From: Brooklawnia cerclae
Lineage (GTDB): Bacteria; Actinomycetota; Actinomycetes; Propionibacteriales; Propionibacteriaceae
Direction: 5' to 3'
NCBI RefSeq assembly: GCF_011758645.1
Contig: NZ_JAAMOZ010000001.1
Coordinates: forward strand, 2,604,001 to 2,668,000
DNA length: 64,000 nucleotides
Notes under the pieces: model-generated
The model's database searches: none
What the model was told of the DNA's origin: nothing
What the model saw: the letters and a program-made list of their open reading frames with translations, nothing else
Shown here: piece after piece, positions 59,092-64,000 of the stretch
How the letters are laid out: each line of letters starts with the position of its first letter
Position numbering within the stretch: position 1 is the stretch's first letter
Translations under genes and position numbers: made by a program

Positions 59092-59718
59092 CTATCCGGA
59101 CGACTTGACCGGATGGACGTGGACGCGCGTCAGATCCGAGTGCGACTCCACGTCCGCCCGGAGACCGAGAGTGGGCAGTTCGTCGGAGAACCAGCGCGGG
59201 ACGTGGTCGCAGATGATGTCCAACCGCAGGAAGTTGGCCTCGCGGAAGAACGGCAGGAGCACCTGCCGGGAATTGTGGGCGCCCTTGACCGCCATCGCCT
59301 CACGCAGGTCGACGCGGTAGTGACCCGCCCTCTCGGGCACCGGCTCGATCACGGCGATCGGCTCGATCGTCTCCGCTGGTGCCGCCGCCCTGGCCTGGGC
59401 GTAGAAACGCTCGATCTCCTGGACGAACTGCTCCGGGTAGCCGTTGACCTCCCACAGGACGACGCCGAGGCTGCCGAAGGCGACCCGGTAGTAGCCGTTC
59501 GCAGCCCTGGCGGCCAGCACCTGGCAGTCGCCCAGCCACTCGGTCACGGTCGCGAAATAGGCTCGCAGGTCGTCCATCGAGTCGCACTCACCCGCGAAGA
59601 ACTCGAGCCGCTGTGAGGACGACCACGTATCGCCCTCACGCTCGTACACGTAGATGGTGCCGCCCCTCTTGGGGCTGGCCGCACGACCCGACTGGTCGAG
59701 CAACGCCGCGATCTTCAT
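59092..59718 (-). CDS. anfO: Iron-only nitrogenase accessory protein AnfO
   Basis: The protein has 208 residues. The family pattern runs from MKIAALLDQSG through SRQVLLPFFREA and LDIICDHVPRWFSDEL, close to the AnfO of Azotobacter vinelandii as I recall it, including the FxxLDIICDHxPRWF block at about 172-187. AnfO is needed for Fe-only nitrogenase-dependent growth, role unclear. RBS AAGGAC before the ATG. It is the last gene of the anf cluster; 67 bases separate it from the 314-residue gene. Confidence 0.9.
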   Translation of the reverse strand: MKIAALLDQSGRAASPKRGGTIYVYEREGDTWSSSQRLEFFAGECDSMDDLRAYFATVTEWLGDCQVLAARAANGYYRVAFGSLGVVLWEVNGYPEQFVQEIERFYAQARAAAPAETIEPIAVIEPVPERAGHYRVDLREAMAVKGAHNSRQVLLPFFREANFLRLDIICDHVPRWFSDELPTLGLRADVESHSDLTRVHVHPVKSSG

Positions 59719-59785: not shown

Positions 59786-60730
59786 TCACGAGACGCAGCC
59801 GAGGGCGCATGTGTCGCACCCGTCGGCGCACAGCCCCATCACGTCGATGTCCGGGAGCACCAGGAACCGGCTCTGGGAGATGACGAACGCCTCGGTCTGC
59901 CGGTCGTTGGAGATCGTCACGGTGTCGTTGCCGAACGTGATGCTGATGGGCAACTTCACGGGCACGTCCTTCGACAGCGCCATCCGCGTCCTGGACGAGA
60001 ACCGCTTGTGACCGACGGCCGGGCTGTTCGCGATGACATCGCCGGAGGTGGCGACGCGGACGAGGTTGCCCGTGGCGTCGAATCGCACCGAGTTCTCGTC
60101 GGCGTCCATCTCCAGGGCGTCCACGTCGTAGGCCATGACCGGCCCGATGGGGGTGGTCAGGCTGACGGGTGCGGCGGGCTCGAACGACTCGAGCTCTCCG
60201 GTCTCGAACACGCGGACGCCGGCCCTGCCCTGGAAGACGCCGAGCGGCGTGGCCACGGGGACGACCTCGCCGGGCCACAGGATGACGCTCTTCACCTTCC
60301 CGCTGGGATAGAAGCGGACTCCGATGATCTTCGCCGTGATGGACCCGAAACCGAACTCGAAGGTGAAGTCGTCAGCGAGAGCCTTCTCGTCGTCCTGTGA
60401 CCAGGAGAACCCGATCTGGCCGTTGAGCGGGAAAACGCTGTCGAGGACACCGTCCTCGAAGAACGTCACCAGTTCGGCGGGAAACGCGCCCAGCGGTGTG
60501 TCCACCATGGTCTGCGCGTCCAGGCAGATGCTGCGAATCGCTCCGCTCTCGCAGAACGACAGGGACTTCATGTCCTTGCTGCGAACGTCGGGCCGCGAAT
60601 AGCGGGGCACAAGATCGCCGCAACTCGTGTGCACCACGTTCGGCTGATCCACGTGACATTCCCGCATCCCGCCCGAGGCGTATGTGGTGTAGCTGGAGAT
60701 CCCCTGGAGATCCAACGCAATGGTCGGCAT
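59786..60730 (-). CDS. Uncharacterised repeat protein with CxxxCxxCxxxC tail in the anf cluster
   Basis: The protein has 314 residues. Five beta-hairpin-like repeats are visible: LSFCESGAIRSI (57-68), VTFFEDGVLDSV (88-99), VRFYPSGKVKSV (138-149), VRVFETGELESF (172-183) and VRFDATGNLVRV (215-226), similar in shape to MORN or WG repeats. TP(L/I)G words precede repeats at 78, 161 and 193. The last residues hold Cys301, 305, 308 and 312 (CADGCDTCALGC), with Cys25, 37, 60 and 69 more. It sits between the PPOX-fold gene and anfO, so a role with the nitrogenase is inferred; the Cys tail could bind Fe-S or metal. I do not recognise the family. Confidence 0.7.
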   Translation of the reverse strand: MPTIALDLQGISSYTTYASGGMRECHVDQPNVVHTSCGDLVPRYSRPDVRSKDMKSLSFCESGAIRSICLDAQTMVDTPLGAFPAELVTFFEDGVLDSVFPLNGQIGFSWSQDDEKALADDFTFEFGFGSITAKIIGVRFYPSGKVKSVILWPGEVVPVATPLGVFQGRAGVRVFETGELESFEPAAPVSLTTPIGPVMAYDVDALEMDADENSVRFDATGNLVRVATSGDVIANSPAVGHKRFSSRTRMALSKDVPVKLPISITFGNDTVTISNDRQTEAFVISQSRFLVLPDIDVMGLCADGCDTCALGCVS

Positions 60731-60752: not shown

Positions 60753-61283
60753 TCAGGCCTGCGAAGTGAAAAGCTCTTCTGGGTCCGCGCGATTCGCCTT
60801 GGCGGTCAACCTGTCCGGGGTCACCCGGAACACGGCGACGGCGTTGCCGTCCTTGGACGACCGATACCGTTCGACCAGGCCGTCGGCGATCGGCGCGCGG
60901 TAGTAGCCGGGCAGCAGCTTGTCCACGAGCGCCTGCAGTGCCCGGGCGGCCTCCCCGGAGTCGTCGACCCGATGCGCCGTCCCGAAGACCATCACGCTCA
61001 TGTAGGCCGTGTCCGCATGACAGGCCATCGGCGCAGTCACCGTCCCGTACTCCTCGTAGACGGTGAAGCACACCTTGGGTTCCGCCTCGAGCATGCCGAC
61101 CTTCCGGCCCGACCCCATGCCGTGGAAGTACACGCTGCCGTCGAGGTAGACGTAGTTCACCGGCACCGCATAGGGATAGTCGTCCGCCGGCAGCCCGAGG
61201 ATCCCCACCCTCTGGGTCTCCAGGAAACGCGATATCTCCTCGCTGTCCTCACACACTCGTTCCGTGTAGGCGATCTCGGTCAC
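60753..61283 (-). CDS. PPOX-fold flavoprotein (Nim-like; possible Anf3 counterpart)
   Basis: The protein has 176 residues. The pyridoxamine 5'-phosphate oxidase-like split barrel is marked by RVGILGLPADDYPYAVPVNYVYLDG, then YFHGMGSGRKVGMLEAEPKVCFTVYEE, with the conserved His of Nim-type proteins. Members bind FMN/FAD or heme. Azotobacter Anf3, an oxidase of Fe-only nitrogenase loci, was reported to belong to this fold; homology is plausible but unproven. GTG start taken because AGGAG lies just upstream; in-frame ATGs at 61301 and 61364 are possible. Lies between anfK and the 314-residue gene. Confidence 0.7.
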   Translation of the reverse strand: MTEIAYTERVCEDSEEISRFLETQRVGILGLPADDYPYAVPVNYVYLDGSVYFHGMGSGRKVGMLEAEPKVCFTVYEEYGTVTAPMACHADTAYMSVMVFGTAHRVDDSGEAARALQALVDKLLPGYYRAPIADGLVERYRSSKDGNAVAVFRVTPDRLTAKANRADPEELFTSQA

Positions 61284-61395
61284 AACGCTCCTCGGCGGCA
61301 TCGTCTCGTCGTTCGGGGTCGGGATGGGCCGGGACGACGGCGGATCCGCAGGGCGCTCGCCCATGCCGTCCCCGCCGCCGACCCGCGTGCTGGTG

Positions 61396-62787
61396 CTACC
61401 AGACGTTCAGCACCCATTCCTTGCTCTTCTTGTATTCCATGTCGGTGAACAGGGCGTTGGCCATCTCCTCGGCCAGGTGGATCGCCCCCGCGTAGCCCAT
61501 GACCGGATGGCGGTATTTCCCGGCCCGGTCGTAGACGGGGAAGCCGACCCGCACCATCGGCACCTTGTGGTCGATGGAGATGAATCGTCCCTTCGAATGC
61601 CCCAGGATCAGGTCCAACTCCAGACCCTCGTCCTTTATGCGGCCCTCCAGGTCCCACAGGTCGGCGTTCGTGACGATCTCCATGCCGTGCGTGATGTTGG
61701 CCTGCAACGCCTGGATGCGCGGATCCCGGTCGTAGTGACTGTTGTCGTCACCCAGGAGCAGGAGCACCGGCTTCATCTCCAGGTCCAGGCAGAACTCGGC
61801 CAGGCCGACCACTAGATCCGGATTGCCGTAGATGGCCACCTTCTTGTCCGCGAAGAACATGTGGGTCAGATCCGTGATGGCGTCGAGGGCGATGCCCCGC
61901 TCCCGCACCAGGGACTCCGGAATCGGCTTGCCCGTCATGGTGCTCAGGTTCTTCAGCAGGGTGTCCGTGTTGCGGATGCCGATGGGCGAGGGGCCGACGA
62001 TCGCGGGGACGCCGAACTTGTCGGAGAGGAACGCCGCGGCCTGACCTCCCTCGTAGCGGTTGAGCGCGATGGTCCCGATGGCGTTGGCCGTCCCGGCGAT
62101 GTCTTCCACCGTCGTCTCGCCGTGCGCGACGTGGTTGCCCGAGGGCATCAGGGGCGCGTCGAAGGTCTCGGTCTCGAACAGCACGGTGGCGTCGATGTCC
62201 ATCTCGGCCAGCAGGTGCTTCAAGGCCGTCACATCCCCGGGGTTGACCCATCCGGTGATGAAGTTGATCTTCCCGTTCGGCTCACCCTTCTCGGCGAAAT
62301 GGCTGACGAACTCCTTCACCGCGAGGTCGTAGCCGCTGATCATGCTCCCCACGAAGCTGGGCGTGTGGATGGGGATCAGGTGCACCTCGCGACCGGGGAA
62401 CTTCTCCTTGAGCAGGCCGTTCTCGAGCTTCGTCACGACCCCGTCGATGTCGTCACCGATCACCTCGGTGGAGCAGGTCGAGATGATGGGCACCACCTTG
62501 ACATCGGGGTACCGAGTCAGGAGCACGTCGACCGCCTCCTCGACGCGGTTGAGTGCACCGAACACCGCGCCGTCCTCGTGGAGCGAGGACGAGGCGATCT
62601 CGAAGCTCTCCTTGAAATGCTGGGAGAAGAGCAGCCGGACGAACATCACGCAACCCTGACCGCCGTGGACGATCCCGATGCAGTCCTTGATGCCGATGCT
62701 CGCGTATTGGGCCCCGCACGGCTGGCAGGTGAAAATGGGGTTGATCGTCCCCGCCCGTTCCTTCTCCTTCAACTGACACGTGTCCAT
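61396..62787 (-). CDS. anfK: Iron-only nitrogenase FeFe protein beta subunit
   Basis: The protein has 463 residues, one more than Azotobacter AnfK. P-cluster Cys ligands are Cys21 (FTCQPCG), Cys46 (GGQGCVMF) and Cys105 (STCSTEVIGDD). AnfK-type motifs include SFVGSMISGYD, TGWVNPGDV, PTPIGIRNTD-like GPSPIGIRNTD, and the C-terminus SKEWVLNVW. Similarity to Azotobacter AnfK is high along the whole length, and the VnfK and NifK forms differ in these regions. RBS GAGGAGG at six bases supports the ATG after an earlier in-frame one. Partner of AnfD and AnfG in N2 reduction. Confidence 0.96.
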   Translation of the reverse strand: MDTCQLKEKERAGTINPIFTCQPCGAQYASIGIKDCIGIVHGGQGCVMFVRLLFSQHFKESFEIASSSLHEDGAVFGALNRVEEAVDVLLTRYPDVKVVPIISTCSTEVIGDDIDGVVTKLENGLLKEKFPGREVHLIPIHTPSFVGSMISGYDLAVKEFVSHFAEKGEPNGKINFITGWVNPGDVTALKHLLAEMDIDATVLFETETFDAPLMPSGNHVAHGETTVEDIAGTANAIGTIALNRYEGGQAAAFLSDKFGVPAIVGPSPIGIRNTDTLLKNLSTMTGKPIPESLVRERGIALDAITDLTHMFFADKKVAIYGNPDLVVGLAEFCLDLEMKPVLLLLGDDNSHYDRDPRIQALQANITHGMEIVTNADLWDLEGRIKDEGLELDLILGHSKGRFISIDHKVPMVRVGFPVYDRAGKYRHPVMGYAGAIHLAEEMANALFTDMEYKKSKEWVLNVW

Positions 62788-62838
62788 GCGTGTCCTCCTC
62801 ATCTACGTTTCGCGATCCGCATTCCGCGCCGCGAGGGC

Positions 62839-63192
62839 CTAGTAATGGGTGTCCGTCAGCTCTTCGTTCAAAGACCCCGTGATGGTCAGGTAGTCCAGCT
62901 TCTCCCGCAGGGCCTGCATCACCTGCCGGATCTCCTGGGCGCTGAGGTCGTCGAGCCAGCCGAACTTGTTCCGGTAGGCGCGCGAGAGGTCAAGAGCATC
63001 CGCGTAGTAGCACTTGTCCTCCGGCGTGGAGGGCACGATCTCCTCCCCGCACAACAGGTCACAGGTCATGCCGAGGATGTGCTCGTTCTGCCGTTCCCGG
63101 TCCCAGGCACGGGAGTGGAACTGCCACAGGCATTTCTTCATGATGTGGTCCAGCAGCAGTTCCATGTACTCGCTCTGCTTTTCTTCGGTCAT
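62839..63192 (-). CDS. anfG: Iron-only nitrogenase FeFe protein delta subunit
   Basis: The protein has 117 residues. CLWQFHSRAWDRERQN (about 21-36) and C-terminal DYLTITGSLNEELTDTHY match AnfG. VnfG has different residues at these places (for example VTITRSTNRELN-type end). The delta subunit is found only in alternative nitrogenases and caps the alpha subunit. ATG with GAGGAGG upstream; lies 13 bases after anfD. Confidence 0.96.
   Translation of the reverse strand: MTEEKQSEYMELLLDHIMKKCLWQFHSRAWDRERQNEHILGMTCDLLCGEEIVPSTPEDKCYYADALDLSRAYRNKFGWLDDLSAQEIRQVMQALREKLDYLTITGSLNEELTDTHY

Positions 63193-63205: not shown

Positions 63206-64000
<795 letters not shown>

Follow-up and report, generated by a model that had tools for sequence, protein, structure and literature searches.

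A cysteine-tailed protein family tied to nitrogenase genomes in Propionibacteriaceae, with a paralogue in an Fe-only nitrogenase operon

When a protein of no recognised family is encoded inside an Fe-only nitrogenase operon, does it belong to that enzyme, to nitrogen fixation more broadly, or to neither? The question is raised by the window, the whole 64,000-nucleotide stretch of Brooklawnia cerclae DNA analysed here, in which a 314-residue protein, referred to below as X, is encoded within an anf gene cluster. We find that X is a real, well-conserved and undescribed family that is tied to nitrogenase genomes in one bacterial family and has an anf-linked paralogue, and that it is not Anf-specific; it may be an unrecognised nitrogen-fixation helper.

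The open reading frame is real. It is a single frame of 314 codons on the minus strand, the plus-strand frame being interrupted by a stop, with a GC content by codon position (59/46/90%) similar to that of anfK (60/38/92%) and with GGGGAAGGA located 7 nt ahead of its start. The gene is under purifying selection, with dN/dS values of 0.05-0.40 over eight pairs (NG86; dS is high in the distant pairs) and of 0.22 between the window copy and the copy in L011, the corresponding locus of UBA5174 (genome G444). All genes of the cluster lie on the same strand in the order anfH-anfD-anfG-anfK-PPOX-X-anfO (Table 1), with anfH and the remainder of anfD just outside the window (L008), and the vnfK model scores 763 bits on anfK, under its own cut-off of 874. 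The original prediction had placed X between anfK and anfO; anfO does adjoin it, whereas its upstream neighbour is the gene of a PPOX-family flavoprotein and not anfK. The short gaps from which co-expression had been argued are present, at 31 nt (anfK-PPOX), 22 nt (PPOX-X) and 67 nt (X-anfO), and a scan for promoters and terminators returned none of either.

Table 1. Coordinates of X and its neighbours in the window, with the basis of each assignment
Feature	Position	Strand	Basis or remark
X, 314-aa beta-repeat protein with CX3CX2CX3C tail	59786..60730	minus	ORF, codon bias, homologues
Cys tail of X, residues 301-314 (C301, C305, C308, C312)	59789..59830	minus	low model confidence
anfO	59092..59718	minus	PF09582 1.2e-44; TIGR02940 121 bits, just below 129 cut-off
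PPOX-family flavoprotein (Pyridox_ox_2), Anf3-like by superfamily	60753..61364	minus	Pfam 9.7e-33; start codon uncertain
anfK (Fe-only nitrogenase beta)	61396..62802	minus	TIGR02931 912 bits, cut-off 854
anfG (delta subunit)	62839..63192	minus	TIGR02929 156 bits, cut-off 125; vnfG model under cut-off
anfD, 3' part, continues past window edge	63206..63997	minus	TIGR01861 1.8e-138

The same anfK-PPOX-X-anfO order, PPOX partner gene included, recurs in UBA5174, where the locus reads anfD-anfG-anfK-PPOX-X-anfO and the anfK frame is broken. Among 198 genomes of the family anfK was detected in three, namely the window's genome (G000), G459 and G444 (in two pieces, below the cut-off), and anfG was detected in one of 396 phylum genomes, again G000. 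X is thus part of the operon in two of three anf loci, and in the third it does not come directly after: the G459 contig ends 246 nt past anfK, those 246 nt hold no PPOX-like or X-like frame, and the X of G459 is of the unlinked kind. Actinobacteria are not among the groups listed for the Fe-only nitrogenase (Alpha-, Gamma- and Deltaproteobacteria, Methanosarcina and Firmicutes) in the portion of a 2021 survey used here (PMC8399215). Literature searches on Propionibacteriaceae with nitrogenase or anf returned unrelated papers only, the extracts retrieved on Propionicimonas and nitrogen fixation held no nif result for Propionicimonas, and a search on anfK with a hypothetical protein and pyridoxamine 5-phosphate oxidase returned nothing. 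The AnfO proteins of the two other loci were seen to differ in form from that of the window. The UBA5174 AnfO (L011:5703-6416) has an extra C-terminal tail with three Cys that is absent from window AnfO, and a 141-aa anfO-like gene of G459 (L052:5303-5728), divergent and upstream of anfH, was recognised by eye; since it was the N-terminal part that was matched, its product is a possible docking-only AnfO.

That X belongs to no described accessory family, as had been supposed, is borne out by the searches, which gave no Pfam, NCBIfam or PDB match (AnfR was outside the comparison), and by this measure of sequence relatedness X is an undescribed protein family. The best Pfam match of window X is MORN_2 (11.9 bits, E 0.29), which also matches two of ten X homologues (E no higher than 1, lowest 0.06); at 11.9 bits against a gathering cut-off of 29.6, window X does not classify as a MORN repeat protein, and a literature search on nitrogenase with MORN repeat returned one unrelated paper only. 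The only NCBIfam match is unrelated (10.6 bits, E 0.17), PDB sequences gave nothing at E 1 for window X or at E 5 for the family profile, and the ten homologues scanned singly reached a best E of 0.0082 (Slr4, two of ten). No radical SAM or ferredoxin family in Pfam or NCBIfam matched X.

The predicted five repeats of the form aromatic-x-x-G-x-hydrophobic-x-S are there only loosely, because three units are strict (residues 91, 141 and 175) and the other two are variants (residues 59 and 217). TP[LI]G occurs three times as well, and the repeat count and the TP[LI]G count were each reached in 0 of 2000 shuffles. The tail was predicted correctly, as four Cys in the spacing CX3CX2CX3C, and four Cys within the final 14 residues arose in 0.035% of 20,000 shuffles. 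All 13 X copies have a Cys-rich tail. The exact CX3CX2CX3C is found in six, comprising both anf copies and those of groups g1 and g224; in the seven g9 copies the tail spans 49-55 residues and includes 9 to 11 Cys, a count that omits a doubtful Cys further upstream in L019 and L051. The short tail contains the CX3CX2C cluster motif of radical SAM proteins and the long tails, with their C-x4-C runs, look metallothionein-like. The spacing in X varies between groups, and a single well-defined cluster site is less likely for that reason.

AlphaFold models of two X members (mean pLDDT 75.5 and 65.1, both built on the same 10 sequences) each show an all-beta hairpin chain in which a single short helix occurs and the tail is modelled at low confidence. 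Foldseek gave no match at E 0.001; RHS toxin shells and DDB1 folds, which led its list, were discarded at E 0.016 or above and TM 0.23 or below among the best 50 rows. In VIA-align the single-layer sheets of the CPAP G-box and OspA come first for both models (Z at most 7.1, rmsd about 4.5-10.8 A), with a best Z for the first model of 7.1 (4lzf, rmsd 9.1, 135 aligned), OspA at 6.7 or below, and a best Z for the second of 6.3; such Z scores are also obtained for models that match nothing clearly, and a Z below 8 may reflect only a common arrangement. MORN_2, TCP10/CPAP G-box, OspA and RHS/YD beta repeats share with X the aromatic-x-x-G hairpin unit, and none of these families is known for a Cys tail. 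Clostridial proteins of similar look may exist; one candidate sequence of this kind had no match in plasmids. On the models, residues from about 10 to 293 of X probably form a free-standing antiparallel beta sheet, one layer thick and made of tandem hairpins, which would suit protein binding, and the last 13-14 residues (up to about 55 in other members) are predicted to be a flexible, disordered Cys-rich arm.

Profile searches recovered 13 X copies in 11 of 198 family genomes. In an order sample X was present in 7 of 332 genomes, all of the same family, and in a phylum sample in 1 of 296, the window's own (searched with the smaller alignment A1). A peptide-pattern scan, whose two 8-residue patterns would let distant relatives escape, gave nine loci labelled Propionibacteriaceae, Propionibacterium, Propionicimonas or, once, only Actinobacteria; Propionicimonas is placed in Nocardioidaceae at NCBI and is counted here with the window's family. 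So far as the family, order and phylum samples were searched, X therefore appears to be a narrow family of Propionibacteriaceae. Seven plasmid-collection records from other phyla were also scanned and 0/7 matched, an empty answer that carries no weight. Candidate mobile origins were discarded: plasmids yielded no relative (three chance Rhodococcus matches, 39 bits, E about 1), phages yielded none (one chance 34-bit match), and viral contigs yielded 69 and 49 pattern matches in two scans, none of them confirmed.

Strict co-occurrence of X with anf, proposed as a check in the original prediction, is not what we observed. All three anfK-bearing family genomes have X, eight of the 11 carriers are without anfK, and only two copies of 13, those of the window and UBA5174, are in anf operons. 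Homologues found mostly outside nitrogenase loci had been named in advance as telling against the prediction; since 11 of 13 copies lie there, an Anf-specific protein is rejected. What X does follow is nitrogenase in general. Matches of the nifH type, at 290 bits or more, were present in 13 of 198 family genomes (G000, G007, G427, G444, G445, G447, G448, G450, G452, G459, G476, G494 and, less surely, G503), which places them in 10 of 11 X carriers and in 3 of 187 non-carriers; nine of the 11 carriers also have a nifK-level match to the anfK model. The association is strong (Fisher P 1.5e-13; genus-stratified P 1.3e-8), but kinship inflates both P values, so that they amount to about three separate co-occurrences (g9, G427 in g224, and the g1 genomes) and one joint absence (G453). 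On a galU tree of g9, covering 26 of 30 genomes and with several weakly supported forks, the six carriers placed need two changes; G453, 99% complete and situated amid nif-bearing X carriers, is without both nif and X. In g224, G427 alone of four genomes has nif, and alone has X.

Exceptions occur in both directions. The 100%-complete genome G006 carries X but lacks nifH, and its sister G007 has nifH with a truncated nifD whose frame runs into unrelated sequence, with no nifK seen (L056:5996-10076), so that the G007 nif cluster is decayed or misassembled although X is retained. The converse, nif in the absence of X, is seen in G476 and G494; in G454 a 108-bit match to a nitrogenase component is accompanied by neither nifH nor X, and seven further actinobacterial genomes of the phylum sample exceed the nifH cut-off without X. 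Where the two are unlinked they are on different contigs, or more than 400 kb apart in G000; draft contigs do not give the true X-nif distance, the X contig of G450 being only 3.6 kb. X presence is thus tied to nitrogenase in general within the family, through few independent events, and the pattern fails outside it.

The anf-linked copies have a history of their own. The second X copy of G000 is 54-55% identical, is located 1.2 Mb away and has no nitrogenase gene nearby. The X tree groups the anf copies of the window and of UBA5174 with this second copy (96/95 support), and the second copy of UBA5174 stands apart from the anf copies and sits with its own genus. Because the tree splits the anf copies from the UBA5174 second copy, X probably travelled with the anf cassette, and it probably came into G444 in this way. 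Both G000 copies have long end branches, and the place of the second in the tree is consequently unsure.

As to function, which we infer, our preferred reading, with a probability of roughly 0.4, is that X would be a cytoplasmic, lineage-specific nitrogenase accessory protein of Propionibacteriaceae, whose tail handles metal or thiols in maturation or protection. Speaking for it are the operon position kept in UBA5174, the co-occurrence with nif genes, the X tree, the purifying selection, the agreement of the two all-beta models and the Cys-rich tail of all 13 copies; speaking against it are the 11 copies outside nitrogenase loci, the exceptions to the co-occurrence, the G459 locus and the tail spacing that varies between groups. 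The mechanism is proposed by analogy with other anf-operon helpers. In R. capsulatus, anf1 (anfO), anf2 (anfR) and the PPOX-family flavocytochrome gene anf3 are reported to be cotranscribed behind anfHDGK (PMC6579470), and the helper region of the window operon comprises AnfO, the PPOX protein and X. The N domain of AnfO, a fidelity factor of the Fe-only nitrogenase, is described as docking on the immature FeFe protein, and its cofactor-binding C-terminal domain, on a flexible linker, as catching wrong cofactors (PMC11938142). By analogy with this docking and cofactor-catching in a protein of the adjacent gene, a docking sheet and a Cys arm are proposed for X: the sheet would dock on a nitrogenase component or a maturation partner, the arm could bind Fe, a heterometal or an Fe-S fragment, or act as a thiol buffer, and in so doing might deliver or scavenge metal during maturation, with the anf copy as a version specialised for the FeFe enzyme. 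The likeness has limits, as no AnfO model matches X, the N domain of AnfO is NifX-like where X has a predicted beta-hairpin sheet, and in AnfO it was a conserved His, rather than the two Cys tested, that proved important for function (PMC11938142). AnfR (Anf2) is likewise an anf-operon helper, located beside anfO in A. vinelandii and described as of unknown role, and anfR mutants there are reported to grow poorly on N2 (PMC9310841). In a bolder version, X would be the first of a new kind of nitrogenase maturation factor, its single-layer beta-hairpin platform bearing an extensible Cys arm that carries or scavenges Fe, heterometal or Fe-S fragments; the paralogue at an unlinked locus would act for the Mo enzyme, and the one in the anf operon would be dedicated to the Fe-only enzyme. 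We consider this version unlikely.

The neighbourhoods of the unlinked copies bear on whether X might instead be a general metal or thiol homeostasis protein (for Fe, Mo or W) that tracks nitrogenase through shared lineages and niche, with one copy recruited into the anf operon. In L015, a MoaB-type gene and a PBP/ABC set immediately precede X. The ATPase of this set has tungstate WtpC as its best match (229 bits, cut-off 440); moaA, moeA-type and moeB/thiF-like genes are also upstream and near X, the whole region covering L015:278-9802, and L018, a near relative, has the same gene clusters. These Mo cofactor genes and the tungstate-type transporter favour such a role, as do the fact that most copies are unlinked to nif, the near-single clade formed by the nif-bearing X carriers of g9 with its two changes on the galU tree, and G006, with X and no nitrogenase. 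The Mo/W cluster, however, adjoins X in just these two closely related genomes. In the other g9 loci nothing Mo-like adjoins X except a MoeA-type gene, which lies within about 4 kb of X together with a GNAT gene and the gene of a membrane protein that weakly matches MauE (as scanned in L016); we take this neighbourhood to be the actinobacterial glp locus and the MoeA-type gene to encode the divisome protein Glp. A 1572-codon ORF intervenes in L015, where the MoeA-type gene is about 6 kb from X. Around the unlinked copies of G000, G006/G007 and G427, the scanned neighbours showed no metal theme, the one exception being a periplasmic SBP_bac_6 protein in L012. The joint presence and absence of X and nif, seen again in g224 and at G453, also argues against general homeostasis, which we regard as a somewhat doubtful alternative. 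An alpha/beta hydrolase gene adjoins the unlinked X of both G000 (L005:10612-11904) and G007 (L012:8566-9507), of different types and on different sides, an adjacency that is probably chance.

The PPOX gene suggests another role, in which X would be a thiol or redox partner of the flavoprotein, passing electrons or protecting the O2-sensitive FeFe enzyme, as proposed for Anf3. PPOX adjoins X in both operons and matches Anf3 (6rk0, 2.5e-9), itself a PPOX-family flavocytochrome in the R. capsulatus arrangement with anf1 and anf2 (PMC6579470), yet it is nearer to 2hti (1.1e-48). Moreover, among the ORFs picked in 12 clustered loci, the PPOX cluster has two members only, both from anf operons, so that the unlinked X copies have no PPOX neighbour in those loci, and a partnership of this kind appears distinctly improbable. 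That X is a mere passenger with no role in nitrogen fixation, a duplicate caught in the anf operon by rearrangement, as the diverged second copy in the same genome, the long end branches of both G000 copies and the G459 operon seemingly without X might suggest, is very unlikely given an operon position kept in two genera, the purifying selection between window and L011 copies and the persistence of the anf copy beside a second copy in both genomes.

The Fe-only nitrogenase is regarded as the simplest to move between organisms, as fewer gene products are needed (PMC8085987). Should the accessory-protein reading of X prove true, a further helper family would widen the Fe-only nitrogenase parts list by a small, testable candidate, in a phylum that the 2021 survey, in the portion used here, does not list for this enzyme (PMC8399215). 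If X is instead a general metal protein, it would present a case of operon position alone being misleading.

Other nitrogenase-related genes of these genomes were noted in passing. A Cys-rich module that seemed to be shared by the nif clusters of G000 and G476 was set aside, its C-terminus being that of NifB. G000 carries a third nifH next to a second nifB (L093:8491-10859, about 2.016 Mb), apart from the nif and anf clusters. The same genome also has a nitrogenase-like gene (L055:6554-8131, about 1.857 Mb) whose best match is NifE, far below the cut-off, near ORFs that by eye resemble cysK and ABC transporter genes; it might encode a sulfur-compound reductase.
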